From: Maritimibacter dapengensis
Lineage (GTDB): Bacteria; Pseudomonadota; Alphaproteobacteria; Rhodobacterales; Rhodobacteraceae
Reading direction: 5' to 3'
NCBI RefSeq assembly: GCF_019218265.1
Contig: NZ_JAHUZE010000002.1
Coordinates: 620,001-684,000 of the forward strand
Length of the DNA stretch: 64,000 bases
Positions 14,865 through 31,113 of this stretch are shown piece after piece (position 1 is the first letter of the stretch; the number at the start of each line of letters is the position of its first letter). The notes below the pieces were generated by a model, which saw only the letters and a program-made list of their open reading frames with translations, made no database searches and was not told the DNA's origin. The translations under genes were made by a program, and so were the position numbers.

Positions 14865-14966
14865 GACTTTGTCCTCCCGACCGCTGACTCCTCCCATGCA
14901 CAGGGCGCGGACGATCCCCGTTGCGGGGACCAGTTCAGCGTATTCGGGGAGTGAAAATCAAGTGCA

Positions 14967-14982
14967 ATTCGCGACTGCGAAT
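14967..14982. promoter_or_regulatory. ATTC-N8-GAAT operator upstream of soxT
   Basis: An exact ATTC-N8-GAAT palindrome between soxR and soxT. Its flanks extend the symmetry (CA on the left, TG on the right). The same motif recurs upstream of five other sulfur genes here, and it has the form described for ArsR-family (per)sulfide sensors such as SqrR. SoxR, encoded next to it, is the obvious candidate binder. Confidence 0.7.
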
Positions 14983-15004
14983 GTGTCGATACGTTAGGAA
15001 GTGC

Positions 15005-15364
15005 TTATTCGGCAGCTTTCGTCGTGCCGTCCCCGACCGAACAGAACATGTCGTAGATCACTTCGAGCACGCGTTTGGGGCGGTCGTCGGCCAACGAATA
15101 GTAAATTGCCTTTCCGTCGCGGCGGGGTGTGACCAGACCCTCCAACCGAAGTCGGGCGAGCTGTTGGGAAACAGCGGCCTGTCGCGCGGACAGGAGTTCT
15201 TCCAGCTCGGTCACGGATTTCTCGCCAGTGACCAGGTGGCACAGGATCATGAGTCGACCTTCATGGCTGATCGCCTTCAGAAACGCCGAAGCGTCGCAGG
15301 CGGATTCAACCATCTTGTCCATTTCCTCGTCGGTCATGTCTTCGGTAATGACAGGGATGTTCAT
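15005..15364 (-). CDS. soxR: SoxR, ArsR-family thiol-sensing repressor
   Basis: 119-residue winged-helix repressor. The recognition helix is ARQAAVSQQLARLRLEGLV (near residues 60-78) and the wing RRDGKAIYYSL (81-91). Cys42 in LMILCHL and Cys108 in DMFCSVG match the Cys41/Cys107 pair that forms a tetrasulfide in SqrR of Rhodobacter capsulatus; a third Cys23 is present. It therefore likely derepresses sox genes when reactive sulfur accumulates. Middle gene of leftward soxS-soxR-soxT. Six copies of a matching operator are spread over the island. Confidence 0.93.
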   Translation of the reverse strand: MNIPVITEDMTDEEMDKMVESACDASAFLKAISHEGRLMILCHLVTGEKSVTELEELLSARQAAVSQQLARLRLEGLVTPRRDGKAIYYSLADDRPKRVLEVIYDMFCSVGDGTTKAAE

Positions 15365-15437
15365 CCGCAGATCCAGTTCAGTTTCGTTTCAATACATTTA
15401 GTGGCATGGCCGGTTCCATGCAAATTCTTCGATACTT

Positions 15438-15456
15438 GAAGGGTAAATTACCCTTC
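15438..15456. terminator. 9-bp inverted repeat at the soxS stop codon
   Basis: GAAGGGTAA and TTACCCTTC flank a single A, giving a perfect 9+1+9 inverted repeat that contains the soxS stop codon. There is no U tract, so it is a weak terminator candidate. It may instead stabilise the soxS mRNA end or set the soxS:soxR expression ratio. Confidence 0.4.
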
Positions 15457-15837
15457 GTTCTGTGACGTTGACGCCGCGACCGGATCGAACCCGGTTTGCG
15501 CCTTGAGCATCATGCCCAGAAGACCCCAGAAGAAATCCTCGCCCGGATAACCTTCTATCCGTGCCAGTTCGATCCCGTCCTCAACCAGCACGAACGTCGG
15601 TGTGTAATTCACCGGACGAGCCAGATCGTAGCCGCTGTCCTCGACCTCGCGCAATTGCACCCGCACCAGAGGCGCAGCGCGCCCTTCAGCGGTTTTGGGA
15701 TATTCTACAGATACTTCTCGGTCCCATTGGCGGCAATAGGCGCAACCGGGTTGCTCGACCATGACCAGCTCCACCGCGAAGGCGGGGAGTGTGGCGACCC
15801 ACAATAGAGCCGCAGCGAGGGCAGGGGCGAGACGCAT
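15448..15837 (-). CDS. soxS: SoxS, periplasmic thioredoxin-like protein
   Basis: 129-residue exported thioredoxin-fold protein. Residues 1-21 are a Sec signal peptide ending AFA, and the redox motif is CAYC (Cys32/Cys35) in EQPGCAYCRQWD. In Paracoccus, SoxS keeps SoxYZ in its active reduced form. ATG 15837 was chosen because the signal peptide begins there; an upstream in-frame start would add a non-signal extension. First gene of soxSRT, divergent from soxV with 83 bases between starts. Confidence 0.92.
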   Translation of the reverse strand: MRLAPALAAALLWVATLPAFAVELVMVEQPGCAYCRQWDREVSVEYPKTAEGRAAPLVRVQLREVEDSGYDLARPVNYTPTFVLVEDGIELARIEGYPGEDFFWGLLGMMLKAQTGFDPVAASTSQNEG

Positions 15838-15870
15838 CTTTTTTCCAATTGACCGAACGCTTGCAAAAAA

Positions 15871-15885
15871 CATAATGCGTTTATG
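15871..15885. promoter_or_regulatory. inverted repeat in the soxS-soxV divergent promoter
   Basis: CATAA-N5-TTATG lies midway between the divergent soxS and soxV starts, inside a wider GAACGC...GCGTTC symmetry (about 15855-15890). The region lacks the ATTC-N8-GAAT motif seen at other sulfur genes here, so it may be a variant SoxR site or a site for another regulator. Confidence 0.4.
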
Positions 15886-15920
15886 CGTTCCGTGCAAGAA
15901 ACGGGATGCCGGGAGGATGT

Positions 15921-16661
15921 ATGTTCGGTGAAATTTCCTATTGGGGGGCGGTTTCGGCTGGTGTCGTGGCGTTCTTCACGCCCTGTATCCTGCCGATGGT
16001 GCCATTCTACCTGAGCTACATGGCCGGTATTTCGATGACCGAACTGCGCGGCGAGGACGAGATCGCGCCAGGGGCGCAGCGACGGCTGGTCGTCTCGGCG
16101 CTGTTCTTTGCGCTGGGTGTCACGACGATTTTCGGGCTTCTTGGGCTGGGAGCCACCGCGGCGGGGCAGGCGTTTGCCCAATGGAAGCAGGAACTGTCCT
16201 ATATCGCGGCAGCGGTGATCTTCATCTTCGGGCTCCATTTCCTGCATGTCATCCGCATCCCATTCCTGATGCGCGAGGCGCGGATGGAATCGAAGATGGA
16301 CCCTTCGACGGTGCTTGGCGCCTATGTCATGGGGCTGGCATTCGGGTTCGGCTGGACCGCCTGCGTCGGCCCTGTCCTCGCAACGATCCTGATGGTTGCG
16401 GCGATGAAGGACACGCTCTGGCAGGGCGGGAGCCTGCTTATCACCTTCGGTCTCGGGATGACCGCGCCCTTCGTGATCGCCGCGGTTTTTGCCAAGCCGT
16501 TCCTTGGCTTCATGGCGCGCAACCGCAGATACATGCCTTACGTGGAAAAGGTCATGGGGGTCATGCTCATCCTGTTCGCTGTGCTGATCGCCACTGGCTC
16601 GGTCAACGCGATTTCAAACTGGCTTATCGAGACCTTCCCCGTGTTTTCGAACCTGGGGTGA
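15921..16661 (+). CDS. soxV: SoxV, CcdA/DsbD-type thiol electron transporter
   Basis: 246-residue membrane protein of the CcdA family with six hydrophobic helices. Cys22 in FFTPCILP and Cys148 in GWTACVGP are the conserved pair that passes electrons from cytoplasmic thioredoxin across the membrane to SoxW. GGGAGG at 15911-15916 sets ATG 15921. It is followed 14 bases later by soxW. Known in Paracoccus pantotrophus to be required for thiosulfate oxidation. Confidence 0.94.
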   Translation: MFGEISYWGAVSAGVVAFFTPCILPMVPFYLSYMAGISMTELRGEDEIAPGAQRRLVVSALFFALGVTTIFGLLGLGATAAGQAFAQWKQELSYIAAAVIFIFGLHFLHVIRIPFLMREARMESKMDPSTVLGAYVMGLAFGFGWTACVGPVLATILMVAAMKDTLWQGGSLLITFGLGMTAPFVIAAVFAKPFLGFMARNRRYMPYVEKVMGVMLILFAVLIATGSVNAISNWLIETFPVFSNLG

Positions 16662-16675
16662 AAAAGGAGTTCAAC

Positions 16676-17272
16676 ATGCGTTTTCTGACAATCCTCATCA
16701 CCGCGCTCGTCTTCGGCCTGCCTGCGCTGGCCGAAATACCGCTTGGCGATGACGGTCTCCACAAGCCAGACTGGCTGCGTGACACGTTCAAGGACATGTC
16801 CGAGGATCTGGCAGAGGCCGAAGACGAGGGCCGGAGGCTTCTTGTCATCTGGGAGCAGCGCGGCTGCATCTACTGTGACAAGATGTACAAGGAGGTCTTC
16901 CCGCGCGACGAGATCAAGGCGCTGATCGAAGAAAACTACTACGTCGTGCAGATGAACCTCTTTGGCGATGTCGAAGTCACGGATTTCGATGGCGAGGCGA
17001 TGTCCGAGAAAGACATGGCGCTCAAATGGGGTGTGATGTTCACGCCGACCATGATGTTCTTCCCACATGCCGACGAGATCGAAGACGGGGAAACCGCGCG
17101 CGATGCAGCGCAGGACGTAGCGATGATGCCGGGCGCGTTCGGGTTCCACACGACCAAGAACCTGCTCACATGGGTTCTGGAAGAAGGCTACAAAGGCGAC
17201 GAGAATTTCCAGAAATACCATGCGCGGAAGTTCAACGAGGAACAGGCCGCAGATCCGGGGACGACGGATTAA
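16676..17272 (+). CDS. soxW: SoxW, periplasmic thioredoxin
   Basis: 198-residue exported thioredoxin-fold protein: signal peptide residues 1-19 (cleavage after ALA), redox motif CIYC (Cys64/Cys67), and the cis-Pro segment MFTPTMMFF near residue 125. It is reduced by SoxV and feeds reductant to the Sox system. AAAAAGGAG precedes ATG 16676. Its stop is one base from the convergent HxlR gene, so the soxV-soxW transcript must end within or against that gene, and soxX starts 2.6 kb further on. Confidence 0.93.
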   Translation: MRFLTILITALVFGLPALAEIPLGDDGLHKPDWLRDTFKDMSEDLAEAEDEGRRLLVIWEQRGCIYCDKMYKEVFPRDEIKALIEENYYVVQMNLFGDVEVTDFDGEAMSEKDMALKWGVMFTPTMMFFPHADEIEDGETARDAAQDVAMMPGAFGFHTTKNLLTWVLEEGYKGDENFQKYHARKFNEEQAADPGTTD

Positions 17273-17273
17273 G

Positions 17274-17975
17274 TCAGCGCATGGCCCCGGTTTCCGGGCG
17301 TCGTGAACCGACCCGTGTAAGGGGGCCGAGATTGAGCCAGTTGGTGAAGGCCTCACGCGCCCAGGCATCACCGATGACCTCGAGCCGCCCGGTCTCGATC
17401 GCCGTGCCAGGTGTCAGGTCGCCACGCACGACGTAGATCGCATCGGGCAGCGTGCAGGCGAGATAGAGGTTCACCTCGCCGCCCGGATCTTCGACGCAGA
17501 GTTCGCAACGGCCTTTCTGGTTCAAGAACCACCAGTCGCGTTTTGACGCGATTTGGTCGGTGAGCTCGAGCTTGATCAGGCATCGCGCGCCACCGAACGC
17601 ATTGGGATCGGTCGCACTTTCAAGGCTCCAGACAAGAAGGCCGAGGTCGATTTCGTGGTCCTTGAGGGCGCGCCGGGTCCAGCGCTGGCCCCAGACGCCA
17701 AGGGCTTCGACGAGCGGGACGAATTCGCGGCCCGCGTCGGTCAGCATGTATCCCGAATTGCGGTCCGCCGGGTCGGGGCGCGTCACGATGTCTTCGTCGA
17801 TCAGCCATTTCAGGCGCGCGGACAGGAGCGAGGGCGACAACAGGGGAACGCCGCGTTGCAATTCGGAAAACCGGCGCGGGCCGTGCGCGAGGTCGCGAAT
17901 GATGAGCGCGTTCCAGCGCTCGCAGAAGAGCTCGGCGGCCTTCGCAACGGGGCAGAATTGTCCGTAGGATTTCAC
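17274..17975 (-). CDS. HxlR-family transcriptional regulator
   Basis: 233-residue regulator. Residues 1-100 form an HxlR winged helix (CPVAKAAELFCERWNALIIRDL start, GPRRFSELQRGVP and a LSARLKWLIDEDIV recognition region). The C-terminal 120 residues resemble an SCP2-like ligand pocket found in longer HxlR proteins. Cys8, Cys18 and further Cys residues near 170 could sense redox state. It is divergent from the methyltransferase gene (91 bases apart), its most likely target. Not a known sox component although it lies inside the sox cluster. Confidence 0.88.
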   Translation of the reverse strand: MKSYGQFCPVAKAAELFCERWNALIIRDLAHGPRRFSELQRGVPLLSPSLLSARLKWLIDEDIVTRPDPADRNSGYMLTDAGREFVPLVEALGVWGQRWTRRALKDHEIDLGLLVWSLESATDPNAFGGARCLIKLELTDQIASKRDWWFLNQKGRCELCVEDPGGEVNLYLACTLPDAIYVVRGDLTPGTAIETGRLEVIGDAWAREAFTNWLNLGPLTRVGSRRPETGAMR

Positions 17976-18066
17976 CTCTCGGCCCTCTCGCTACAGATCT
18001 AGAACTATATCCGAAATCGCGCCTCGAGTCATTGTTCGCGCAGGAAGGCACAATGGAGGGCTAGAG

Positions 18067-18870
18067 ATGGGACGGGACGCGAAAGCAGGGCAGGTCAGCG
18101 GATCGGCTGCGGAAATCTACGATGCGTTTTTCGTGCCGGCGCTGTTCGGGGCGTGGGCAGGACAGCTGTGTGACGCGGCGGGCGTGTCATCCGGCGAGAA
18201 GGTGCTCGACGTGGCTTGCGGAACGGGGGCGACGGCACGGGAGGCGCTGGCGCAGGTCGGGGCACGCGGTCATGTCACGGGTTTGGACCGAAACGACGGG
18301 ATGCTCGCGGTGGCGGCGGCGCGGACGCCGGATGTCGATTGGGTCGAAGGGATGGCCGAGGATCTGCCGTTCGAGGATGCATGCTTTGACCGGGTGCTCT
18401 GCCAATTCGGGCTGATGTTCTTCGATGACCGGGCCGCGGCCTTGCGCGAGATGCGCCGCGTGTTGCGACCCGGCGGGCGGCTTGGCCTTTCCGTTTGGGA
18501 CAGAGCGGAGGCGTCTCCCGGCTACGCGCGCATGATCGGGTTGATCGGCGACATGTTCGGGGCCGAGGCCGCGGATGCGCTTCGTGCGCCTTTCGTGTTG
18601 GGCGACCGCGACGCGCTGCGTAGAGTTCTGGCCGATGGCAGGCTTGGCGACGCGCGGGTTGAGACGGTCGCGGGAGAGGCGCGATTTTCGTCGATCCGGG
18701 AATGGGTTCGGATGGATGTGCGCGGCTGGACGCTGTCGGACTTGATCGACGATGCGGGGTTCGAGGCGCTCGTCGCGGCGGCTGAAGGCGCATGCGCAGA
18801 TTTCGTGGGGGACGGCGGCGTGGTGCGATTTGCGGCGCCCGCACATCTGGTCACATGGCCGGGGCGTTGA
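18067..18870 (+). CDS. class I SAM-dependent methyltransferase
   Basis: 267-residue Rossmann-fold methyltransferase of the UbiE/Methyltransf_11 type. VLDVACGTGATA near residues 42-53 is motif I, LDRNDGML near 75 the acidic loop, and the AEDLPFEDACFDRVLCQFGLMFF segment near 96-120 is typical. No signal peptide. It is divergent from and probably controlled by the HxlR gene. The substrate is unknown; the location between soxW and soxX makes a link to sulfur chemistry possible but unsupported. Confidence 0.88.
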   Translation: MGRDAKAGQVSGSAAEIYDAFFVPALFGAWAGQLCDAAGVSSGEKVLDVACGTGATAREALAQVGARGHVTGLDRNDGMLAVAAARTPDVDWVEGMAEDLPFEDACFDRVLCQFGLMFFDDRAAALREMRRVLRPGGRLGLSVWDRAEASPGYARMIGLIGDMFGAEAADALRAPFVLGDRDALRRVLADGRLGDARVETVAGEARFSSIREWVRMDVRGWTLSDLIDDAGFEALVAAAEGACADFVGDGGVVRFAAPAHLVTWPGR

Positions 18871-18908
18871 CGGGGGAGGTGGGCTGGGTCGGACGAGACG
18901 CTTCCCCA

Positions 18909-18943
18909 TAAAAAAACACCGGCCGGGGCGAACCCGGCCGGTG
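18909..18943 (-). terminator. rho-independent terminator of the VPLPA-CTERM gene
   Basis: A perfect 11-bp GC-rich stem (18917-18927 with 18933-18943) closes a GCGAA loop and, read leftward, is followed by a run of U (A tract at 18910-18916). It sits 20 bases past the stop of the leftward CTERM gene and may also block rightward transcripts. Confidence 0.88.
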
Positions 18944-18963
18944 CATGTTTTACGCCTTTTGGA

Positions 18964-19581
18964 TCAGGCTTGCTGCTTGCGACGCAGAGCTGCAAGTCCG
19001 CCGAGACCTGCAAGAAGCAGGAAACCAGCGGCCGGAAGCGGCACTGCGGCGATATCCATCGACGCCACCTTGAAGCTGTCGTCCCAGGCGTCAGCGCCGA
19101 AGCTGATCGAAGACCCGGTCAGACCCGCAAAGGTGAAGGTCGGGTTCGGGCCCGAACGCTCTTCCGGTGCAACCAGAACACCATCGACGAACAGGTCGAA
19201 GCTGTCAGAGCTACCCCAGCTTGCGAAGGTCACGGACTTGAACTTCATGACCGAGCTGAACGACAGGGTCAGCAGGTCGTCGCCCGCGGAACCATCGATA
19301 TACGGGCCGTCGAGCACACCGCTCACGCCAAGGCCGATGGACGTATCAGCGACCCAACGCAAAGGCGAATCTGAGTCGATGATGTAGTCCTCGTCGGAAC
19401 TGCAGGAGAACCATACACAGTCGCTGTAAAGGCCCGCAGTTGCGGTCATGGTAACACCGCCCTGTTCCATCTGGTCAGACGAATCGAGCGCATCGCCGGT
19501 GAAGTCCCACATGGCGGCGGACGCGGAACCCGCAACCCCCGTCAGCAGAGCCGCTGCCAGCAACGTTTTGAAAGGTTTCAT
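18964..19581 (-). CDS. exported VPLPA-CTERM protein
   Basis: 205-residue secreted protein: signal peptide residues 1-22 (ASA cleavage), a beta-rich middle with few basic residues, and the C-terminal sorting signal VPLPAAGFLLLAGLGGLAALRRKQQA (in parts: VPLPA motif, hydrophobic helix, Arg/Lys end). Such tails are processed by an exosortase system in Roseobacter-group bacteria. Two Cys near residue 55 (DCVWFSC) may form a disulfide. Start ATG 19581 matches the signal peptide. Divergent from soxX with a 354-base intergenic region. Ligand and role unknown. Confidence 0.85.
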   Translation of the reverse strand: MKPFKTLLAAALLTGVAGSASAAMWDFTGDALDSSDQMEQGGVTMTATAGLYSDCVWFSCSSDEDYIIDSDSPLRWVADTSIGLGVSGVLDGPYIDGSAGDDLLTLSFSSVMKFKSVTFASWGSSDSFDLFVDGVLVAPEERSGPNPTFTFAGLTGSSISFGADAWDDSFKVASMDIAAVPLPAAGFLLLAGLGGLAALRRKQQA

Positions 19582-19935
19582 CAAATTACCCCCAATGTTT
19601 GCAAACATACGAGGCCCCCCGACCGGCTTTTCCGGCCGAACTCCTCGCAAGTGATATCTTAAACATCATTAAGTCTTTTTCCATTGTTCTTTTTGATAAC
19701 CATTGAATTTTTGATGGAAACAATCTGTTTCCGAACCTGCGCGAAAGCACGGGTGAGAATCAGCCGCCAGCGGGTGCGGGAGGCGGCACGTAACGACGAA
19801 GAATGACCCAGTGCATTGTTTGGAATACGATTTTTCCTTCACCACCAACCTAAAAATTCAAATAGTAGAATTTGTGATTGGCAAAGTGTCGCACCGCGTA
19901 TACGTTCGTATTCACAAAACGTGATGGGAGGAATC
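19582..19935. promoter_or_regulatory. divergent CTERM-gene/soxX intergenic region
   Basis: 354 AT-richer bases without a gene. It holds a perfect 14-nt palindrome ATGTTTGCAAACAT (19595-19608) just upstream of the CTERM gene. Two imperfect direct repeats starting CCATTG and ending TTTTTGAT lie at about 19681-19714. The sox operator is at 19856-19871, and a degenerate second copy (ATTC-N8-TGAT, 19910-19925) abuts the soxX ribosome site. I cannot place -35/-10 elements with confidence. Confidence 0.5.
19856..19871. promoter_or_regulatory. ATTC-N8-GAAT operator upstream of soxX
   Basis: Exact ATTC-N8-GAAT palindrome 64 bases before the soxX start, positioned to control soxXYZA. An imperfect second site, ATTC-N8-TGAT, lies at 19910-19925. 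Together they could allow cooperative SoxR binding. Confidence 0.72.
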
Positions 19936-20415
19936 ATGAAGCGTACGATACTTGCGCTGGCCGCGGTGTCGCTGACCGCAGGCGCGGCTCAGGCGGCGGA
20001 GATCGCCCCCGGTGAAGTGGAATTCGACGGCTATGAAGTGACCGCGTCCTTGACGGAAACGCCGGGAGACCCCGAGAAGGGCCGCGAAATCGTCACCAAC
20101 AAATCCATGGGCAACTGCGTGTCCTGCCACGCCGCCGAGGCGTATTCGGACGTGCCGTTCCACGGCGAAGTCGGACCGATCCTCGACGGGGCAGGGGACC
20201 GCTGGACCGAGGCGGAACTGCGCGGGATCGTGTCGAACGCGAAAATGGCGTTCGAGGGCACCGTGATGCCGGCCTTCTACAAGGTCGACGGATTCACCCG
20301 GCTCGGCGACGCCTTTACTGGCAAGGCTTGGCCCGAAGGCGAGCCGGTGACGCCGCTGCTCACGGCCCAGGAAATCGAAGATGTCGTGGCCTACCTGCTC
20401 ACTCTGAAAGAGTGA
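19936..20415 (+). CDS. soxX: SoxX, cytochrome c subunit of SoxXA
   Basis: 159-residue monoheme cytochrome c: signal peptide residues 1-20 (AQA), heme motif CVSCH (Cys61, Cys64, His65) and probable Met ligand Met111 in VMPAF. With SoxA it couples thiosulfate oxidatively to the SoxY cysteine. GGGAGGA at 19926-19932 places the start at ATG 19936. First gene of soxXYZA, 35 bases ahead of soxY. Confidence 0.95.
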   Translation: MKRTILALAAVSLTAGAAQAAEIAPGEVEFDGYEVTASLTETPGDPEKGREIVTNKSMGNCVSCHAAEAYSDVPFHGEVGPILDGAGDRWTEAELRGIVSNAKMAFEGTVMPAFYKVDGFTRLGDAFTGKAWPEGEPVTPLLTAQEIEDVVAYLLTLKE

Positions 20416-20450
20416 CCCGGGCCGCAATCCAGACAAATCAGGAGAGACAC

Positions 20451-20867
20451 ATGAAACTCAATCGACGCGATGCGCTCGCAATGGGTCTCGGCGCCACCGC
20501 CGTCGCCATGTTGCCGATGCGCGCTTTCGCTGCCGCTGACGAGGCGATTGCGACATTCACCGGCGGTGCCGAGGCGGGCTCGGGCGATCTGACGCTCGAC
20601 GCACCGGAAATCGCAGAGAACGGCAACACCGTTCCGATCAGCGTTTCCGCCCCCGGCGCGGCTGCAATCGCGGTTTTCGCCGCAGGCAACCCGACGCCCG
20701 GCGTGGCGACATTCAACTTCGGCCCTGCTTCTGGCAGCCAGTCAGCCTCGACCCGCATCCGGCTTGCCGGAACGCAGGACGTGGTCGCTGTCGCGCAGAT
20801 GGCGGACGGGTCGTTCATTCAGACCGCCAAGACCGTGAAGGTCACCATCGGCGGCTGCGGCGGCTAA
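20451..20867 (+). CDS. soxY: SoxY, sulfur-carrier subunit
   Basis: 138-residue carrier protein. Twin-arginine signal NRRDALAMG opens residues 1-28 and the C-terminus ends in GGCGG, whose Cys carries the thiosulfate and sulfane sulfur through the Sox cycle. SoxZ, which lacks its own signal, is exported bound to it. GGAGAG precedes ATG 20451. The tail is exactly the canonical swinging arm, so the system is predicted functional. Confidence 0.96.
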   Translation: MKLNRRDALAMGLGATAVAMLPMRAFAAADEAIATFTGGAEAGSGDLTLDAPEIAENGNTVPISVSAPGAAAIAVFAAGNPTPGVATFNFGPASGSQSASTRIRLAGTQDVVAVAQMADGSFIQTAKTVKVTIGGCGG

Positions 20868-20889
20868 GCGAGATAGAGGAGAAAAAACA

Positions 20890-21219
20890 ATGGCAACTGG
20901 TGTCAAACCCCGCGTCAAGGCTCCGAAATCCGCATCTGCGGGTGAGGTGGTCACCATCAAGACGCTCATCAGCCACCCGATGGAATCGGGTCAGCGCAAA
21001 GACAGCGACGGCAACACGATCCCGCGCTCGATCATCAACCGTTTCACCTGCGAGCTGAACGGCAACATGGTCGTCGACGTGACGCTGGAACCGGCGATCT
21101 CGACCAACCCGTATCTCGAATTCGAGGCGAAAGTCGACGAAGCCGGCGAGTTCAAGTTCACGTGGTACGACGACGACGGCTCGGTCTACGAGGACGCGAA
21201 GCCGATCGAAATTGCCTAA
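20890..21219 (+). CDS. soxZ: SoxZ, SoxY partner
   Basis: 109-residue immunoglobulin-like protein without signal peptide, consistent with piggy-back Tat export with SoxY. Characteristic segments are KTLISHPMESGQRKDSDG (residues 24-41) and FKFTWYDDDGSVYE near 95. AGGAG precedes ATG 20890. It lies 22 bases after soxY and 24 before soxA, inside the soxXYZA transcript. Confidence 0.96.
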   Translation: MATGVKPRVKAPKSASAGEVVTIKTLISHPMESGQRKDSDGNTIPRSIINRFTCELNGNMVVDVTLEPAISTNPYLEFEAKVDEAGEFKFTWYDDDGSVYEDAKPIEIA

Positions 21220-21243
21220 GCGAAGCGGTCAGGGAGGAAATCA

Positions 21244-22095: not shown

Positions 22096-22104
22096 TCTGA
22101 TCGA

Positions 22105-22138
22105 CCCCGCCCGGCGCGATCCGGGCGGGGTTTTCTTT
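22105..22138 (+). terminator. terminator between soxA and soxB
   Basis: A 10-bp GC-only stem (22105-22114 with 22121-22130) and six-base loop, followed by TTTTCTTT. It splits sox transcription into soxXYZA and a separate soxB-started unit. Confidence 0.9.
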
Positions 22139-22148
22139 CACCAAACAC

Positions 22149-22164
22149 ATTCCGTTTTCCGAAT
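22149..22164. promoter_or_regulatory. ATTC-N8-GAAT operator upstream of soxB
   Basis: Exact ATTC-N8-GAAT palindrome between the soxA terminator and the soxB start, 33 bases before ATG 22198. Its position right after a terminator indicates that soxB has its own regulated promoter. Confidence 0.72.
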
Positions 22165-22197
22165 GGATGGCGGAGAATGACAAAAACGGAGCGACGC

Positions 22198-23895
22198 ATG
22201 ATCTCTCGCCGCGATTTCTTGCAGGTCGGCATGGCCGCGAGCGCCATGGTCGGAGCCTCGGGCTTCGGCAATTGGGCGAAACTGGCCGCGCAGCAGACGC
22301 TGACACAGGACCAGCTTCTGGAGTTCGACACGTTCGGAAACGTGTCGCTGATCCACGTGACCGACATCCACGCGCAGTTGAAGCCGATCTATTTCCGCGA
22401 GCCGGAGATCAATCTCGGTGTAGGCGACAACAAGGGCGAGGTGCCGCATGTCACCGGGGCCGAGTTCAAGGCGCGCTACGGAATCGCGGATGGCTCGCCC
22501 TCTGCTTACGCTTTGACCTACAACGATTTTTCGTCTCTAGCGAAGGAATACGGCAAGGTCGGCGGGCTGGACCGTGTGGCCACTGTCATCAATTCGATCC
22601 GCGCGGCGCGCCCGGATGCGTTGCTGCTTGACGGTGGCGACACCTGGCATGGCTCTTACACCTGCTACCACACCGAGGGGCAGGACATGGTCAACGTCAT
22701 GAACGCGTTGAAGCCCGATGCCATGACGTTCCACTGGGAATTCACGCTCGGATCGGACCGTGTGCGCGAATTGGTCGAGGGGCTGCCTTTCGCCGCGCTC
22801 GGTCAGAACATCTTCGACGCCGAATGGGATGAACCCGCCGAGACATTCGAGAGCTACAAGTTCTTCGAGCGGGGCGGAGTGAAGATTGCCGTGATCGGCC
22901 AGGCCTTCCCCTACATGCCGATTGCCAACCCGGGGTGGATGTTCCCCGAATACTCCTTCGGGATCCGTGACGAGCGGATGCAGGAGATGGTGGACGAGGT
23001 GCGCGGGCAGGGGGCCGAGCTGGTCGTCTGTCTCAGCCATAACGGCTTCGACGTGGACAAGAAGATGGCCTCGCGCGTGACCGGCATCGACGTGATCCTG
23101 TCGGGGCACACCCATGACGCGCTGCCCGAGCCGGTGTTGATCGGAGAGACGATCATCATCGCGTCGGGGTCTAACGGCAAGTTCGTGAGCCGTGTCGATC
23201 TCGACGTGCGCGACGGACGCATGATGGGCTTCCGGCACAAGCTGATCCCGATCTTCTCGGACGTGATCGAGCCGGACGCCGAAGTGAGCGCGTTGATCGA
23301 CGAACAGCGGGCGCCGCATGAGGACGCCATGTCGGAGGTGATCGGCACGACCGACGAAGAGCTCTACCGCCGCGGCAATTTCAACGGGACGTGGGACGAT
23401 CTGATCTGCGACGCGCTGATTTCCGAGCGCGAGGCCGACATCGCGATGTCGCCCGGCGTGCGCTGGGGGCCGAGCCTTCTGCCCGGCGACGACATCACCC
23501 GCGAGGATATCTGGAACGTGACCTCGATGACCTATGGCAAGGCTTATCGCACGGAGATGACGGGGGAGTTCATTCACACGATCCTCGAGGACGTGGCGGA
23601 CAACCTGTTCAACCCCGACCCCTATTACCAGCAGGGCGGCGACATGGTGCGCATCGGTGGCATGGGCTACCGCATCGACGTCACCAAGCCGCAGGGCGAC
23701 CGGATCACCGAGATGACGCTGCTCAAGACCGGAGAGGCCATCGATCCCGCCAAGACATACAACGTCGCGGGCTGGGCCAGCGTCAACGAGGGAACCGAAG
23801 GCCCGCAGATCTGGGACGTGGTGGAGAGCCACATCAAGAAACTCGGCACGGTCACGCTCGACCCGAATACTTCGGTCGAAGTGGTGCAGGGCTGA
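22198..23895 (+). CDS. soxB: SoxB, thiosulfohydrolase
   Basis: 565-residue Tat-exported dimanganese hydrolase (5'-nucleotidase-like fold) that removes sulfate from SoxY-bound sulfonate groups. It has the RR signal SRRDFLQ at residues 3-9, metal ligands in TDIHAQ (Asp56, His58) and GGDTWHGS, the HWEFT motif replacing the nucleotidase NHE, LSHNGFD, and SGHTHD. I prefer ATG 22198, with GGAG six bases upstream, over ATG 22177 whose GGAG is only one base away. It leads soxBCD. Confidence 0.95.
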   Translation: MISRRDFLQVGMAASAMVGASGFGNWAKLAAQQTLTQDQLLEFDTFGNVSLIHVTDIHAQLKPIYFREPEINLGVGDNKGEVPHVTGAEFKARYGIADGSPSAYALTYNDFSSLAKEYGKVGGLDRVATVINSIRAARPDALLLDGGDTWHGSYTCYHTEGQDMVNVMNALKPDAMTFHWEFTLGSDRVRELVEGLPFAALGQNIFDAEWDEPAETFESYKFFERGGVKIAVIGQAFPYMPIANPGWMFPEYSFGIRDERMQEMVDEVRGQGAELVVCLSHNGFDVDKKMASRVTGIDVILSGHTHDALPEPVLIGETIIIASGSNGKFVSRVDLDVRDGRMMGFRHKLIPIFSDVIEPDAEVSALIDEQRAPHEDAMSEVIGTTDEELYRRGNFNGTWDDLICDALISEREADIAMSPGVRWGPSLLPGDDITREDIWNVTSMTYGKAYRTEMTGEFIHTILEDVADNLFNPDPYYQQGGDMVRIGGMGYRIDVTKPQGDRITEMTLLKTGEAIDPAKTYNVAGWASVNEGTEGPQIWDVVESHIKKLGTVTLDPNTSVEVVQG

Positions 23896-23921
23896 TGGAC
23901 GAACTAAGCAGGAGGATCCCG

Positions 23922-25208: not shown

Positions 25209-26265
25209 GGGCACAGCGCTTGCAGCGCTGACACTGACCGCTGCCGCCCCCGCGTTCGCGGACGGATACGGGCTTGGGCGCGAAGCGCTCCCCGAAGAGA
25301 TTGCCGCATGGAACCTGGACATCGCGCCGGACGGCACCGGGCTTCCCGACGGGTCCGGATCGGTCGAAGACGGCGAGTGGATCTTTTCCGAGAACTGCGC
25401 GGTCTGCCATGGCGAATTCGCCGAGGGCGTTGACAACTGGCCCAAGCTCGCAGGCGGCGAAGACACCCTTGCGGACAAGGATCCGCTGAAAACCGTGGGT
25501 TCTTATTGGCCTTACCTGTCCACCGTGTTCGACTACGTGCGTCGTTCGATGCCGTTTGGTGCCGCGCAGACGCTGTCGGATGACGATATCTACGCGATCA
25601 CGGCTTATATCCTTTACTCCAACTACCTCGTCGAAGACGACTTCGTCCTGTCGAAGGACAACTTCCTCGACGTCGAGATGCCCAATGCCGAAGGCTTCAT
25701 CGTCGACGACCGGGCCAAGACGGAGTATCCGATCTTCACCGAGGCGAACGCCTGCTATGAGAACTGCAAGGACGATGTGGAAATCACCATGCGGGCCACG
25801 GTTCTGGACGTGACGCCGGAGGAAACCGCGGAGGAAGAGGCGGCATTGCAGGAAGCGGCGGCGGAAACCGTTGTCGAGCCTGACACCACCGACAAGGCCG
25901 AAAGCGCGGTCGATGCGGCCGCGGAACCCGCAATGGAGGCTCCGGACCCGGAGCTCGTCGCGGCGGGCGAGAACGTCTTCAAGAAATGCAAAGCCTGTCA
26001 CAAGGTGGGCGAGGATGCGAAGAACGGCACTGGCCCGTTGCTGAACGGCGTCGTCGGGCATCCAGCCGCACAGAATGCGGATTTCAAATATTCGAACGGG
26101 ATGAAGGATGCGGCTGCCGGTGGTCTCGTCTGGGATCACGAGGCACTGACCGGTTATCTCACCAAGCCGCGGGATTACATAAAGGGCACGAAAATGTCGT
26201 TTGCGGGCCTCAAGAAGCAGGACGATATCGATGCGGTGATCGCCTATCTGTCGACGTTCGACTAG
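25192..26265 (+). CDS. soxD: SoxD, diheme cytochrome c subunit of sulfane dehydrogenase
   Basis: 357-residue exported cytochrome: signal peptide residues 1-23, first heme CAVCH (69-73) in the SoxD domain, an Ala/Glu-rich linker (208-252), then a cytochrome c2-like domain with CKACH (266-270). A CYENC pair near 188-192 is probably a disulfide. It takes electrons from SoxC to cytochrome c. The start overlaps soxC by 17 bases and is preceded by GGGAGG, indicating coupled expression. Confidence 0.95.
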   Translation: MSRFLKGTALAALTLTAAAPAFADGYGLGREALPEEIAAWNLDIAPDGTGLPDGSGSVEDGEWIFSENCAVCHGEFAEGVDNWPKLAGGEDTLADKDPLKTVGSYWPYLSTVFDYVRRSMPFGAAQTLSDDDIYAITAYILYSNYLVEDDFVLSKDNFLDVEMPNAEGFIVDDRAKTEYPIFTEANACYENCKDDVEITMRATVLDVTPEETAEEEAALQEAAAETVVEPDTTDKAESAVDAAAEPAMEAPDPELVAAGENVFKKCKACHKVGEDAKNGTGPLLNGVVGHPAAQNADFKYSNGMKDAAAGGLVWDHEALTGYLTKPRDYIKGTKMSFAGLKKQDDIDAVIAYLSTFD

Positions 26266-26445
26266 GCGAGAAACCTGCATCGACTGCCGGCGCTACCGCA
26301 TCCCCATGCCTTGCGCCACACCATTCCGGGGCATTAGCCTCGGGATGGCTCTTTCTTTAAATAAGTTAATATAATCAATTCCTTAATAGTTGACCGCGGC
26401 GCGATTTTTCTTGTGCGATCTTTCGTCGCAGACTAACATTCAGAC

Positions 26446-27153
26446 ATGAAAACGCTTAGATTTTTCGCTGCCCTCATGCTCTGCGCTTCGCAGGGTGTCG
26501 CGCCTGCGGGCGCGGCGGAGTTCGTTGATCCAGAGGACGGGGCGCAGGTGTTCAAGAAGTGCCGCGCCTGTCACGCGGTCGGGGCCGACGCCTTTAACCG
26601 CACTGGGCCGCACCTGAATGAGATTTTCGGGCGTAGGGCCGGCAGCGTGGAGGAGTTTCGCTATTCTGACGGGCTGACCCGGATGGGCAATGACGGGCTG
26701 GTCTGGGATATCGACAGCCTCGACGCCTATATCGAGAACCCGAAGGCGTTCGCCAGCGACACGCGGATGAATTTTCCGGGTATCAAGGATGAAGGGGAGC
26801 GCGGCGATTTGCTCGCCTTCCTGCGCCAATATTCGGACAGTCCGGCCAACATTCCGGGTGCCGCGCCGACTGCGACGCCGCACGAGGTGGCGTTGTCGGA
26901 CGACATCCTCGCGATCGTTGGGGACCCGGACTACGGTGAATACTTGAGCTCGGAATGTACGACCTGTCACCAGTTGGACGGCGACAACGACGGGATTCCG
27001 GGTATCGTGGGGTGGCCGGAGGAAGATTTCGTGGTCGCGATGCACGCCTACAAGGAAAAGGTCCGTCCGCATCCCGTGATGCAGATGATGGCCGGACGGC
27101 TTGCCAACGACGAAATCGCCGCGCTCGCGGCTTATTTCGGGGGGCTTGAGTAG
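26446..27153 (+). CDS. soxE: SoxE, diheme cytochrome c
   Basis: 235-residue exported cytochrome with two domains: signal peptide residues 1-23, CRACH (39-43) and CTTCH (171-175). With SoxF it forms a flavocytochrome c-sulfide-dehydrogenase-like pair in Paracoccus. It begins 180 bases after soxD; that gap is AT-richer, contains no exact ATTC-N8-GAAT motif, and shows no clear terminator. soxF follows 32 bases later. Confidence 0.93.
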   Translation: MKTLRFFAALMLCASQGVAPAGAAEFVDPEDGAQVFKKCRACHAVGADAFNRTGPHLNEIFGRRAGSVEEFRYSDGLTRMGNDGLVWDIDSLDAYIENPKAFASDTRMNFPGIKDEGERGDLLAFLRQYSDSPANIPGAAPTATPHEVALSDDILAIVGDPDYGEYLSSECTTCHQLDGDNDGIPGIVGWPEEDFVVAMHAYKEKVRPHPVMQMMAGRLANDEIAALAAYFGGLE

Positions 27154-27185
27154 CCCCGAGACATTTTTTGCAGGGAGGACACAAC

Positions 27186-28457
27186 ATGAAACTGAACAGA
27201 CGCCAATTCGTGGGCGCATCGGCGGGGATTGCCGCCTCAACGCTCGCAGCGCCGTCGCTTTATGCGGCAAGTCACGGTGGCAAGCCCAAGGTCGTCGTGA
27301 TCGGCGGCGGGGCCGGTGGCGCGACGACGGCGCGCTATATCAACAAGGACAGTGACGGGGCGATCGACGTGACGCTCGTCGAGCCGACGCGCACCTATTA
27401 CACCTGTTTCTTCTCGAACCTCTACATCGGCGGCTTCCGCACCATAGAGAGCCTTGCGCACAGCTATGGCGGTATCGCTTCCGAAGGGGTGAACGTGGTG
27501 CATGATTATGCCGTTGGGGTGGACCGGGACGCCAAGACCGTGACGCTCGCATCGGGTGATACGCTCATGTACGACCGGCTTGTGATGTCGCCCGGGATCG
27601 ACTTTGTCGATGGTGCGGTGCCGGGTTGGGACGTGACCGCGCAGAACAAGATGCCTCATGCCTACAAGGCCGGGAGCCAGTCGGAGCTGCTCAAGGCGCA
27701 GATCGAGGCGATGCCTGAAGGCGGCACTTTCGCCATGGTCGCGCCGCCCAATCCGTATCGCTGCCCGCCGGGGCCGTATGAGCGGATTTCGATGGTCGCG
27801 CATTTGCTCAAGGAAACCAATCCGACCGCCAAGATCCTGATCGCGGACCCGAAGGAGAAATTCTCGAAACAGGGGCTCTTCGAGGAAGGCTGGAATACGC
27901 ATTATTCGGGCATGATCGAGCGGATCGGCCCGGATTTCGGCGGCAACAATGTCGAGGTGAACCCGGATGAGATGACGCTGACCATCGACGGGACGGTCGA
28001 GAACGTCGATGTCTGCAACGTGATCCCGGCGATGAAGGCCGGGGTGATCTGCGAGCGGGCCGGGCTGACCGACGGCAACTGGGCGCCGGTCGACGGGCGC
28101 ACCATGGTCAGCCGCATGGACGAGAACGTGCATATCCTCGGCGATGCCTGTGCGCAGGGCGACATGCCCAAATCGGGCTTCTCGGCCAACAGCCAGGCCA
28201 AGGTCGCGGCGATGGCGGTCCGGGGCGCGCTTACCGACAGCAAGGTGTTCCCGGCCAAGTTCTCGAACACCTGCTGGTCGCTGATCGCGCCGGATGACGG
28301 CGTCAAGGTCGGCGCCGCGTACGAGGCGAACGAAGAGAAGATCGCCAGCGTCGACAGCTTCATCAGCCAGACCGGCGAAGATGCGGCTCTGCGAAAAGCC
28401 ACCTACGAGGAATCTGTGGGGTGGTATGAAGGGATCACTTCGGATATATTCGGATAA
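27186..28457 (+). CDS. soxF: SoxF, FCSD-type flavoprotein
   Basis: 423-residue flavoprotein of the flavocytochrome c sulfide dehydrogenase family. Tat signal NRRQFVGAS (residues 4-12), FAD motif VIGGGAGG (38-45), and redox cysteines Cys74 in YYTCFF and Cys363 in NTCWS. Oxidises sulfide, passing electrons to SoxE, and enhances Sox activity in Paracoccus. GGGAGGA precedes ATG 27186. Its stop codon lies inside an ATTC-N8-GAAT operator for the next gene. Confidence 0.94.
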   Translation: MKLNRRQFVGASAGIAASTLAAPSLYAASHGGKPKVVVIGGGAGGATTARYINKDSDGAIDVTLVEPTRTYYTCFFSNLYIGGFRTIESLAHSYGGIASEGVNVVHDYAVGVDRDAKTVTLASGDTLMYDRLVMSPGIDFVDGAVPGWDVTAQNKMPHAYKAGSQSELLKAQIEAMPEGGTFAMVAPPNPYRCPPGPYERISMVAHLLKETNPTAKILIADPKEKFSKQGLFEEGWNTHYSGMIERIGPDFGGNNVEVNPDEMTLTIDGTVENVDVCNVIPAMKAGVICERAGLTDGNWAPVDGRTMVSRMDENVHILGDACAQGDMPKSGFSANSQAKVAAMAVRGALTDSKVFPAKFSNTCWSLIAPDDGVKVGAAYEANEEKIASVDSFISQTGEDAALRKATYEESVGWYEGITSDIFG

Positions 28458-28463
28458 CAGAAT
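28448..28463. promoter_or_regulatory. ATTC-N8-GAAT operator overlapping the soxF stop
   Basis: Exact ATTC-N8-GAAT palindrome whose spacer contains the soxF TAA (28455-28457). It ends 52 bases before the DUF302 start, so that gene probably has its own regulated promoter in addition to read-through from soxEF. Confidence 0.65.
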
Positions 28464-28514
28464 ATGTGTGGCCGCCGGGCAAAGATTCGGCGACCCAGAT
28501 CCGGGAGGTTCAAA

Positions 28515-28961
28515 ATGCTGAAACCAATCATCACGGCTGCGGCGCTTGCCGTGGCATCGCCGGTGCTGGCTGAAAGCCACGGCGGCGAGTTGTCCGTCAC
28601 TTACCCCTACGATGGCAGTTTCGACGACGCGACGTTCGCGGTGGAGACCGCGATCGTCGGGGCCGGGCTGGTCATCGACCATGTGAGCCACGTCGGCGAT
28701 ATGCTGGCGCGGACCGGGGTCGATGTCGGCTCGGAGGTGACAGTGTTCGACGGTGCCGACATCTTCAGCTTCTGCTCCGCGGTGGTGAGCCGCGAGGTGA
28801 TGGAAGCAGATCCCGCGAACATTGCGTTCTGTCCTTACGGTATCTTCGTGACGTCGCGCGACGGCACGGTCGAGATCGGCTATCGCGCGTTCCCGGAAGG
28901 CGAGATGCAAAAGGTCCAGTCGCTGCTGGACGGTATCGTTCAGGACGCTCTCGGGAACTGA
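28515..28961 (+). CDS. exported DUF302-family protein
   Basis: 148-residue protein with a signal peptide (residues 1-19, VLA) followed by a DUF302 fold: the central DIFSFCSAVVSREVMEADPANIAFCPYGIFV segment (in parts: FSFCS, ADPANIAFCPYG) is diagnostic and carries two Cys. DUF302 proteins have no settled function. They often accompany sulfur-oxidation or heavy-metal genes, and here the gene follows soxF under a sox-type operator. I infer a periplasmic accessory role in sulfur metabolism. Confidence 0.88.
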   Translation: MLKPIITAAALAVASPVLAESHGGELSVTYPYDGSFDDATFAVETAIVGAGLVIDHVSHVGDMLARTGVDVGSEVTVFDGADIFSFCSAVVSREVMEADPANIAFCPYGIFVTSRDGTVEIGYRAFPEGEMQKVQSLLDGIVQDALGN

Positions 28962-29079
28962 TCCCAAAGAACACCGTTCTAATGGCGGGGCTGACATCGG
29001 CCACCGCTAGGGAAGCTGTTGCAAAAACGCCCTGCGAGAGGGGAAAGATTTTCTGAACTGCGCAACTTCGCAGAAAGAT

Positions 29080-29095
29080 AATCGTTTTTTTGAAT
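29080..29095. promoter_or_regulatory. one-mismatch copy of the sulfur operator upstream of pmpAB
   Basis: AATC-N8-GAAT with a poly-T spacer, one base off the consensus. It is nearly identical (15 of 16) to the reverse complement of the site upstream of the persulfide-dioxygenase gene, and both continue with GTGA. It lies 74 bases before the first YeeE/YedE gene. Confidence 0.6.
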
Positions 29096-29169
29096 GTGAC
29101 CTTGAGGCCTTCTCCGCGGCTGATTATGTCGGGCCTTCAAGTCAATCGGACGTGAGAGAGTGAGGCTCC

Positions 29170-29610
29170 ATGACTGTCATCGAAACTGCATTCACGCCCT
29201 GGGCGTCTCTGATCGGCGGGCTGCTGATCGGGTTCGCCACGGTGCTTCTGATGCTCGTGCGCGGCAACGTGTTCGGGGCGACCGGCGTTCTGGCCGGGTT
29301 CATGACGCCTTCGTCCTCGTCGGACTGGGCGTGGCGTGCCACGCTCATCGCGGGGATGCTGACCGGCCCCTTCGCCATCCTGTTGTTTACGGGGGGATTT
29401 CCCGTGATCGAAGTGCCGATGTCCCGGCTCGCCATGATCGTCGGCGGGTTCATCGTCGGGATCGGGGTGACATACGGTTCAGGCTGTACCTCCGGGCACG
29501 GCGTCTGCGGGCTGGCGCGCCTTTCGCCGCGCTCCATAGCCGCCACAGCGACCTTCATGCTGTTCTCGTTCATCACCGTCTATGTCATCCGCCACGTGAT
29601 CGGAGGGTAA
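29170..29610 (+). CDS. pmpA: YeeE/YedE-family half-permease (PmpA-like)
   Basis: 146-residue membrane protein, half the length of full YeeE/YedE permeases, with four hydrophobic helices. The YGSGCTSGHGVCGLARLSPRS motif (near residues 104-124, spelled here in parts YGSGCTSGHG and VCGLARLS) carries the Cys pair thought to handle thiosulfate or sulfane sulfur. It pairs with the next gene, four bases downstream, as PmpAB-type modules do. Probably moves a sulfur compound across the inner membrane. Confidence 0.85.
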   Translation: MTVIETAFTPWASLIGGLLIGFATVLLMLVRGNVFGATGVLAGFMTPSSSSDWAWRATLIAGMLTGPFAILLFTGGFPVIEVPMSRLAMIVGGFIVGIGVTYGSGCTSGHGVCGLARLSPRSIAATATFMLFSFITVYVIRHVIGG

Positions 29611-29614
29611 GACC

Positions 29615-30061
29615 ATGCAGAAACTATTGATCTATATCTCCGGCCTGATGTTCGGCGTGGGCGTGTCCATGGGGGGTATGGCCAACCCGGCGAAGGTTCA
29701 GAACTTCTTCGACGTGTTCGGCGTGTGGGACCCGTCGCTTGCCCTCGTCATGGGTGGGGCGCTTCTCGTGACCGCGCCCGGCTACTGGCTGATCTTCAAG
29801 CGCGGCAAACCGTTGTTCGCTGGCGGGTTCTCGGTACCCACCAATCGGACCATCGACGCCAAGCTGATCTTCGGCTCTGCCACGTTCGGGATCGGCTGGG
29901 GGATTGCAGGGTTCTGCCCCGGTGCCTCGATCCCGGTCATGTCGACGCTGAACCCCGACGTGCTGATTTTCTCCGGCGCCATGATCGCCGGGATCTTCGC
30001 CGCGAAGGGCATGATGCACCTCGCCGCGCAGCGCAGCGCCAAGGCGGGGCAAGCCGCCTGA
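29615..30061 (+). CDS. pmpB: YeeE/YedE-family half-permease (PmpB-like)
   Basis: 148-residue partner of the preceding half-permease. Features are GVSMGGMANPAKVQNFFD near residue 15-32 and GIAGFCPGASI near 100-110, which contains the conserved Cys. About four membrane helices. Two genes together equal one full YeeE/YedE transporter such as SoxT, also present in this window. A terminator follows. Confidence 0.85.
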   Translation: MQKLLIYISGLMFGVGVSMGGMANPAKVQNFFDVFGVWDPSLALVMGGALLVTAPGYWLIFKRGKPLFAGGFSVPTNRTIDAKLIFGSATFGIGWGIAGFCPGASIPVMSTLNPDVLIFSGAMIAGIFAAKGMMHLAAQRSAKAGQAA

Positions 30062-30086
30062 GACGAAACTCAATCTCCCTGAGACT

Positions 30087-30116
30087 GGCCGCATCCGCGA
30101 GGGTGCGGCCTTTTTT
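30087..30116 (+). terminator. rho-independent terminator after pmpB
   Basis: GGCCGCA (30087-30093) pairs with TGCGGCC (30104-30110) across a ten-base loop and is followed by six T. It lies 26 bases past the pmpB stop. Confidence 0.87.
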
Positions 30117-30272
30117 GTTGTGAAATCCAGCGGTTCGGCACAGTTGTCGGATGACGGCTCTGCGGACAGAGCTGCCATTCGTAGCAGGCTTATCAATGTC
30201 TGCTTTCGTAACCCAGATGGAAGTTGTTTATTGGTGCTCACAGTGGCCGTTTGAACAAGGAGGGAGAGAGCA

Positions 30273-30809
30273 ATGATTGATTGGGTCAAATCTCTTTTTG
30301 GAAAGCGAAAGACGGAAATTTCTTCAACAGACACGGTGCAAGACGATCAGCTGCTAAAGCAGTTTAAGGTTGTTCTCGCCAATCGGATGGACGACTTTTA
30401 TCCCGAGGTCAGAGATGCTTTCGCAACCCTGCTGGACGCTGACCTTCCCGATAGCATCAAAGGGCTTCACATTGAGGTATTTCTAGATGATCCCGCTTTT
30501 TCTTTTCGGCTCTTTAGCAAAGGAAAAAACGATGTTTGGTCAGATGATCCAGAAGCAGTTGAGAAGTTTAACGATACCATAAATCGTATTTGGCCTATCG
30601 TGAAAGAGGACGAACTGGATCAATACACGATCTGGGAAGACGATCCAAAATGGGGGCGTCAAGTGGCCTTGGAGCAACCGCTCGACAAGCTAAACGTTCC
30701 TAGAATTGTCTTCCCTTGGTTCAAGAAAATTGTGTCAGAGACCAGAGGGGATTTCTCACATCCCATCACAGCGTCGGTCCACGACATAACCTTACCGGAA
30801 GAGCTTTGA
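30273..30809 (+). CDS. low-GC hypothetical protein
   Basis: 178-residue soluble acidic protein with no motif I recognise. It has many Trp/Asp/Lys residues and segments such as FLDDPAFSFRLFSKGKNDVW and QYTIWEDDPKWGRQV. AAGGAGGGAG ahead of ATG 30273 is a strong ribosome site. The gene and its flanks are clearly AT-richer and use different codons (for example many TTT, AAA, GAT) than all neighbours, suggesting recent acquisition. It splits pmpAB from the persulfide-dioxygenase operon. Confidence 0.75.
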   Translation: MIDWVKSLFGKRKTEISSTDTVQDDQLLKQFKVVLANRMDDFYPEVRDAFATLLDADLPDSIKGLHIEVFLDDPAFSFRLFSKGKNDVWSDDPEAVEKFNDTINRIWPIVKEDELDQYTIWEDDPKWGRQVALEQPLDKLNVPRIVFPWFKKIVSETRGDFSHPITASVHDITLPEEL

Positions 30810-31113
30810 GCGTAGCACCCAACAGCCACCGTTCATGCACTGCGCAGCATCAGTCAGATTGGGCTCAAAGCAGACCAATGCTTTCGCGGAAACGTGGCGC
30901 CTGCCATTTGTTGCACAAACCGGGGAAGGCCGGGTGATCGCCCTGGATTTCAGGGTGCCGGGCAAATAAATTCAAAAAAACGAATGTGAGGGGTTTACGG
31001 AGCCGATCCTGACCCCTATCTCGGTTCAAACGGTTCTGAATACGTGCATTTGTTAGCGGTTCAGGGCAAAGTCACATCAGGGCCGGCGAAAAGGCCGGCA
31101 AAGGAGTGGAGAG
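30810..31113. other. intergenic region upstream of the persulfide-dioxygenase gene
   Basis: 304 bases without a convincing gene. The first half continues the lower-GC character of the preceding orphan gene. The second half carries the ATTC-N8-GAAT operator (30970-30985) and the ribosome site AAGGAG (31101-31106). I see no terminator after the orphan gene. Confidence 0.5.
30970..30985. promoter_or_regulatory. ATTC-N8-GAAT operator upstream of the persulfide-dioxygenase operon
   Basis: Exact ATTC-N8-GAAT palindrome with an A-tract spacer, followed by GTGA. It sits 128 bases before the MBL gene and would control MBL-DUF442-sulP. BigR/SqrR-type repressors are known to control the equivalent operon in other bacteria. 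Confidence 0.7.

Follow-up and report, generated by a model that had tools for sequence, protein, structure and literature searches.

A 64,000-nucleotide stretch of the Maritimibacter dapengensis genome (contig NZ_JAHUZE010000002.1, positions 620,001 to 684,000; "the window" below) carries genes for sulfur oxidation (sox) and persulfide handling whose promoters share the palindrome ATTC-N8-GAAT. Very probably, the sox-linked protein SoxR is an SqrR-type repressor of a dispersed sulfane-sulfur regulon that it controls through operators of this form; that it would bind them, and that it would sense sulfane sulfur, is argued from its homologues. The site set itself is real, well conserved and larger than first described, and it suggests that one known type of sulfur-sensing repressor switches sulfur oxidation and detoxification genes together.

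Sites in the window, the genome and the genus

The first-pass annotation of the window took ATTC-N8-GAAT to be a motif already known for SqrR-type repressors, and it is indeed the deduced SqrR site in PMC9774250 (published work is cited throughout from excerpts of the papers). Five exact copies, at 14967, 19856, 22149, 28448 and 30970, lie where that annotation had placed them, with no sixth in the window, together with the AATC-N8-GAAT variant that it reported at 29080. It had further set these six before soxT, soxX, soxB, a DUF302 gene, pmpAB and the persulfide-dioxygenase (pdo) run, correctly in every case; the distances from site to gene run from about 13 to 129 base pairs (bp), and the site at 14967 is located between soxR and soxT:

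14967..14982, unstranded: predicted operator-like site ATTCGCGACTGCGAAT, about 69 bp before soxT (minus strand), the weakest of the set
19856..19871, unstranded: predicted operator ATTCAAATAGTAGAAT, about 65 bp before soxX
22149..22164, unstranded: predicted operator ATTCCGTTTTCCGAAT, about 13 bp before soxB
28448..28463, unstranded: predicted operator ATTCGGATAACAGAAT, about 52 bp before the DUF302 gene, its left half overlapping the last codons and stop region of soxF
29080..29095, unstranded: predicted operator AATCGTTTTTTTGAAT, about 75 bp before pmpA
30970..30985, unstranded: predicted operator ATTCAAAAAAACGAAT, about 129 bp before pdo

Fewer than one exact copy per window had been expected by chance; dinucleotide shuffles of the window average slightly more (1.19), and none of 100 shuffles contained at least five. 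A one-mismatch scan of the window gave 11 matches vs 23.5 expected, so that the surplus is limited to exact copies. The whole-genome scan proposed at first pass found 32 exact copies in 3.96 Mb (20 contigs), a density of about 0.5 per 64 kb, and five of these lie inside 16 kb of the window; the Poisson probability of five exact sites in 16,019 bp is about 3e-7, for a stretch chosen after the fact. The reversed pattern, which differs in composition, has two copies genome-wide, and seven congener genomes hold 21 to 32 exact sites each vs 0 to 4 copies of that reversed pattern.

Outside the window there are 27 sites, 13 of them inside predicted genes and 14 not, as called by a simple in-house gene finder. 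Half of the latter (7/14) stand within 140 bp before the genes for an SQR-like flavoprotein, thioredoxin-2 (trxC), two rhodaneses, a second DUF302 protein (DUF302b), a TsoY-family protein and a transporter-like protein with no Pfam match. The SQR label is our own: the nearest NCBIfam model, for a type III selenoprotein subtype of SQR, scores 89 bits, far under its cut-off of 525. Four of these seven promoters (SQR-like, thioredoxin-2 and the two rhodaneses) belong to the same gene types as known SqrR targets. Four other outside sites either fall in an uncalled open reading frame or have their nearest called start more than 400 bp away. The two DUF302 genes have the genome's only two perfect copies of YAYATTC-N8-GAATRTR, a pattern written after the sites had been viewed.

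The sox locus was compared in seven congeners (handles G001 and so on), of which one was covered from soxF onward only. The pdo site is exact in all seven and the site of the first DUF302 gene (DUF302a) in six, being absent in G001; soxF was found neither in G001 nor in G002, which has kept the DUF302 site. At soxX the site is exact in 5/6 congeners, at soxB in 3/6 (within one mismatch in 6/6) and at soxT in 2/6 (within one mismatch in 6/6), which makes the soxT site weak even inside the genus; the place of the pmpA site is kept in 7/7 as AATC, ACTC or ATTC-N8-GAAT, with one exact copy among the seven. The seven sites outside the window are likewise kept in most orthologous promoters, and the pdo, DUF302, pmpA, trxC, rhodanese, SQR-like and tsoY promoters have a site in nearly every congener.

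Taken over the 13 targets of the M. dapengensis genome, the congener promoters carry exact sites in 51 of 77 cases and sites within one mismatch in 75 of 77, vs 1/73 and 3/73 for 12 control promoters of the same loci. We quote these 13 first because the full set of 16 target rows includes soxC, soxV and a second persulfide dioxygenase (PDO2), which were chosen post hoc, after the congeners had been inspected; with them the counts are 57/93 exact and 83/93 within one mismatch (shuffles 0.8 and 10.95). Control spacings of N6, N7, N9 and N10 gave one match in all target rows together. Per-column conservation was computed on sites already within one mismatch, a choice that favours the arms. Conservation in related species, which the first-pass annotation expected of functional sites, is thus borne out among the congeners by target vs control promoters, as is its claim of a regulon wider than sox, which in fact extends past the window.

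Some congener sites have no equivalent in the window. An extra exact site stands before soxC in G002, G003 and G005 (loci L178, L179, L180 and L181 were examined). The second persulfide dioxygenase (42-44% identical) was examined in four congeners and has an exact site in three of them, G001, G002 and G004 (L270, L271 and L272), 24-26 bp before the aligned start; that of G006 (L273) has no site.

SoxR as the candidate binder and the reach of its regulon

SoxR is the best candidate for the protein that would bind these sites. It aligns to R. capsulatus SqrR without gaps (62/95 identical residues), and both Cys42 and Cys108, assigned at first pass to the positions of the SqrR sensing pair, are conserved in that alignment; the recognition-helix stretch RQAAVSQQLARLRLEGLV is identical in the two proteins. 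Its ArsR winged-helix domain matches PF01022 at 37.6 bits (cut-off 22) and NF033788 at 82.7 bits (cut-off 55), and it falls below the BigR equivalog model NF040642 (92.6 bits, cut-off 155). By gene order it is sox-linked, its neighbours being soxS, soxV and soxT. In a search of its own genome (expectation value, E, up to 0.01), SoxR was the only Cys-pair homologue found, accompanied by two weaker ArsR proteins: a paralogue (C1:1176796) with 48% identity to SoxR over 91 residues, and a third protein with 37% identity that is without the Cys pair. At E up to 1e-10, the same search in the congeners found no second Cys-pair regulator in the genus; five congeners had one match, and G002 had SoxR plus a 41% match.

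It is improbable that the regulon is real and its binder some other protein, either the paralogue C1:1176796 or an unrelated regulator, although the binding of SoxR would be argued from homologues and the paralogue is fairly close to it. The paralogue lacks the first Cys and carries PQPVVSSHLARMRYEGLV in place of the RQAAVSQQLARLRLEGLV that SoxR shares with SqrR, and a second match resembling it is absent (E up to 1e-10) from the seven congeners that keep the operators, the second match in G002 and the only one in G006 being at 41%. We judged it an unlikely binder.

Among 40 regions fetched from the search matches and added to the loci given by the search, 13 genomes of the family carry a second regulator that is SqrR-like, is not linked to sox and has RQAAVSQM in its recognition helix. 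In a tree of these regulators (few columns, bootstrap unsettled, deep forks weakly separated), SoxR falls inside a mostly sox-linked block and R. capsulatus SqrR just outside it, on a long branch; with the same limits, sox-linked and other rows require 10 label changes and do not form two clean clades. Since R. capsulatus SqrR itself branches near the sox-linked block, we set aside as unproven the idea that SoxR took over from an SqrR that was lost.

As named relatives we took the best 80 sox loci among the matches listed, fetched with SoxB as query. Here and in the congener tallies a match was counted anywhere in the 300 or 250 bp before a gene, its position being free, and rows were dropped if the start was unaligned or fewer than 200 bp lay upstream. 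The soxX site was exact in 50/69 loci and within one mismatch in 60/69 (shuffles 0.4 and 9.8), and the soxB site in 20/78 and 53/78 (0.3 and 10.4); soxV followed with 1/71 and 36/71 (0.3 and 9.8), and soxC with 7/73 and 13/73 (0.3 and 8.1). Control spacings matched in at most one locus per gene for each spacing. The soxX and soxB sites, kept in these relatives, are thus the old core, and few relatives share soxT and DUF302 as targets. Outside sox, the trxC promoter has an exact site in 7 of 13 other genera of the family (136 bp from the start in one, 38 to 56 bp in the other six), is within one mismatch in 8 and has none in 5; within 400 bp of upstream sequence, the SQR-like gene has a site within one mismatch in five of six other genera, with one exact.

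Several observations weigh against one wide regulon under SoxR. Conservation in the named relatives fails for two of the window sites: soxT has none exact in 60 loci and 2/60 within one mismatch (shuffles 0.4 and 6.9), and DUF302 has 1/22 and 3/22 (0.1 and 2.5). In other genera (30 best loci per search, 8 of them the genus itself) the pmpA site is exact in 1/22 and within one mismatch in 3/22, and the pdo site in 2/22 and 4/22. The motif between soxS and soxV is degenerate in M. dapengensis, though many relatives have a near-match there. To these come the 13 outside sites that lie inside predicted genes and three intergenic sites that precede ccoG, ykuD and dnaJ; when these three are added, the congener tally becomes 51/97 exact and 79/97 within one mismatch. 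Congener G006 has the sites and only a 41% regulator match, with no strong SoxR, in an assembly that is 81% complete. Finally, pmpA and pmpB of H. denitrificans were unaffected by thiosulfate, according to an excerpt of PMC11582611.

We rejected ccoG and dnaJ as regulon members, as their sites are within one mismatch in 0/7 and 0/6 congeners, respectively. The ykuD-type gene (L297; congeners L296-L303), a possible member, has an exact site here; in the congeners it is exact in 0/7 and within one mismatch in 4/7, at the same place in three.

A rival reading limits SoxR to the old core of soxX and soxB, perhaps with soxV and soxC, the remainder being due to chance or to separate local repressors. 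In its favour, the sites that rise well above the shuffles in the named relatives are those of soxX and soxB alone, with soxV and soxC following more weakly, and 13 genomes of the family have the second, non-sox regulator. We nevertheless think this unlikely: the pdo, DUF302, pmpA, trxC, rhodanese, SQR-like and tsoY sites are kept in nearly all congeners, the trxC site reaches into other genera, and the second Cys-pair regulator was not found in the genus at the E limit given above. Single sites such as soxT could be non-functional. A chance cluster in AT-richer intergenic DNA, to which the missing one-mismatch excess and an expectation of 0.5 to 1.2 exact copies per 64 kb might point, is most implausible and is refuted for the set as a whole: both the congeners and the named relatives keep the sites far more often than dinucleotide shuffles, spacing controls and control promoters would give, and the ccoG and dnaJ sites are lost in the congeners.

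The sox-pmp-pdo locus

The locus runs leftward through soxT, soxR and soxS, and rightward through soxVW, soxXYZA, soxBCDEF, the DUF302 gene, pmpAB and pdo-DUF442-sulP; read from gene order, these groups would be its transcription units. The sox names without a family match are our own assignments from gene order. The main features are:

13803..14897, minus strand: soxT, YeeE/YedE-type sulfur transporter (PF04143 above cut-off, TsuA models below cut-off)
15005..15364, minus strand: soxR, SqrR-type ArsR repressor with Cys42 and Cys108 (PF01022; nearest solved relative R. capsulatus SqrR)
15448..15897, minus strand: soxS-like thioredoxin-fold gene preceding soxR (by position; sub-threshold PF13098)
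15906..16661, plus strand: soxV, its own promoter motif degenerate
19936..20415, plus strand: soxX, first gene of the soxXYZA block (PF00034; gene order)
22103..22132, plus strand: terminator-like hairpin 3' of soxA, directly before the soxB operator (from a scan)
22177..23895, plus strand: soxB thiosulfohydrolase (TIGR04486, 838.5 bits, cut-off 550)
28515..28961, plus strand: DUF302 gene a (PF03625 above cut-off; N-terminal signal-peptide-like stretch, by eye)
29170..29610, plus strand: pmpA half-transporter (PF04143)
29615..30061, plus strand: pmpB half-transporter (PF20398)
31114..32013, plus strand: pdo, ETHE1-like persulfide dioxygenase (PF00753)
32034..32366, plus strand: DUF442-type sulfur transferase (PF04273; TIGR01244 above cut-off)
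32410..34176, plus strand: SulP-family transporter, last of the pdo run (TIGR00815 above cut-off)

The soxS-like gene has tblastn matches in 72 of the 80 named loci. In the gap between soxS and soxV, positions 15875-15890 hold a degenerate form of the motif, ATGC-N8-GTTC, which lines up with a one-mismatch site of congener G004, and a promoter-like match adjoins it; autoregulation of soxR may be weakened in this genome. A promoter scan of the region was uninformative, with 2 promoter-like sites vs 4.2 in shuffles.

Between soxW and soxX, about 2.6 kb (17273-19850) has no counterpart in six congeners, in which the gap is about 140-290 bp; named by eye, it holds an HxlR-like regulator, a methyltransferase-like gene and a VPLPA-CTERM-like protein. 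Just before soxX, ATTCAcAAAaCGTgATGGGAGGAATCATG at 19910-19940 is nearly invariant among six genomes of the genus, and in G001 this region holds the motif within one mismatch, possibly a second SoxR contact.

The hairpin at 22103..22132, with its T tract, aligns across six genomes of the genus, and its place between soxA and the soxB site fits a separate soxB promoter; terminator-like matches over the region are not above shuffles (16 vs 15.4). The soxE gene gave only a weak match, at the soxD end, in G001 and G002. An open reading frame of 178 residues between pmpB and pdo (30273-30809) matches no model of Pfam or NCBIfam (E up to 0.001), and no counterpart was found at either the seven congener loci or the 80 named ones. 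PDO and the DUF442 protein are two separate proteins. Against the Blh model NF040641 (cut-off 625 bits) the first scores 377 bits over the dioxygenase part and is therefore not Blh itself; the second scores 67 bits.

Proposed circuit and known systems

In the circuit that we propose, a reduced SoxR dimer would sit on ATTC-N8-GAAT operators at promoters and block transcription, until cytoplasmic sulfane sulfur (persulfide or polysulfide) formed a sulfur bridge between Cys42 and Cys108 and took SoxR off the DNA. This would release soxT, soxXYZA, soxBCDEF, DUF302a, pmpAB and pdo-DUF442-sulP in the window and, elsewhere, the SQR-like gene, trxC, the two rhodaneses, DUF302b, the TsoY-family gene and the transporter-like gene. 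The signal would be raised by SQR and drained by PDO and DUF442, and TrxC and a rhodanese would reset the switch, as carried over from R. capsulatus.

The repressor, the motif and most of the target types are already known, and the gene set is mostly what the SqrR and SoxR literature predicts; new are the merged regulon predicted under a sox-linked SoxR and its two DUF302 members. No joint sox and SqrR-type regulon in this group was described in the titles and abstract starts searched. We tentatively suggest, as an idea perhaps a little less likely to hold than to fail, that one sox-linked SoxR runs a circuit that other genera may split with a second SqrR-like repressor, and that the DUF302 pair handles persulfide. 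If so, thiosulfate oxidation, sulfide oxidation, persulfide clearance and thioredoxin-2 reset would stand under one sensor, and the two DUF302 proteins would be unrecognised persulfide handlers. A local sox cluster becomes part of a regulon that spans the genome, can be tested and has one predicted sensor; the literature on SoxR in thiosulfate oxidisers is joined to that on SqrR in sulfide responders; and DUF302, a family of unknown function, gains a conserved place in a predicted sulfane-sulfur response. In sox clusters of Sulfitobacter, DUF302 genes have been noted that lie between soxF and soxH (PMC11034169), and on the basis of gene neighbourhoods PMC12423496 proposes sqr, sox, pdo, rhodanese, SoxT and PmpAB as targets of such regulators.

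Three known systems invite comparison. SoxR of Hyphomicrobium denitrificans is an ArsR repressor that has two conserved Cys, acts on sulfur oxidation genes and responds to sulfane sulfur; it responded to polysulfide and bound several intergenic regions of the sulfur locus, with 4/5 probes bound (PMC10451225). It differs in being partnered by a second Cys-pair repressor, sHdrR, and a search of PMC10451225 and PMC12423496 for words starting ATTC or GAAT found none. BigR of Xylella and Agrobacterium is a related ArsR repressor with a DUF442 and ETHE1 system (PMC5823870), in which the two are fused as Blh and share an operon with a TauE-related transporter; in M. dapengensis, unlike in the BigR system, PDO and DUF442 have separate genes, the regulon is dispersed and the BigR equivalog cut-off is missed. 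SqrR of R. capsulatus shares with our SoxR the Cys pair, the recognition-helix stretch, the form of the operator and targets among sqr, rhodanese and trxC genes: it regulates sqr and a rhodanese (PMC9995734), its effect on trxC exceeds 20-fold, and its cross-link is reduced by TrxC (PMC10044876), the trxC primer printed in the latter containing, by our own reading, ATTC-N8-GAAT next to the start of trxC. The excerpts used do not describe SqrR as a regulator of sox genes, and no word starting with "sox" occurs in PMC9995734; here, unlike SqrR, the regulator is sox-linked, and its predicted sites span sox, pmpAB, pdo and the DUF302 genes.

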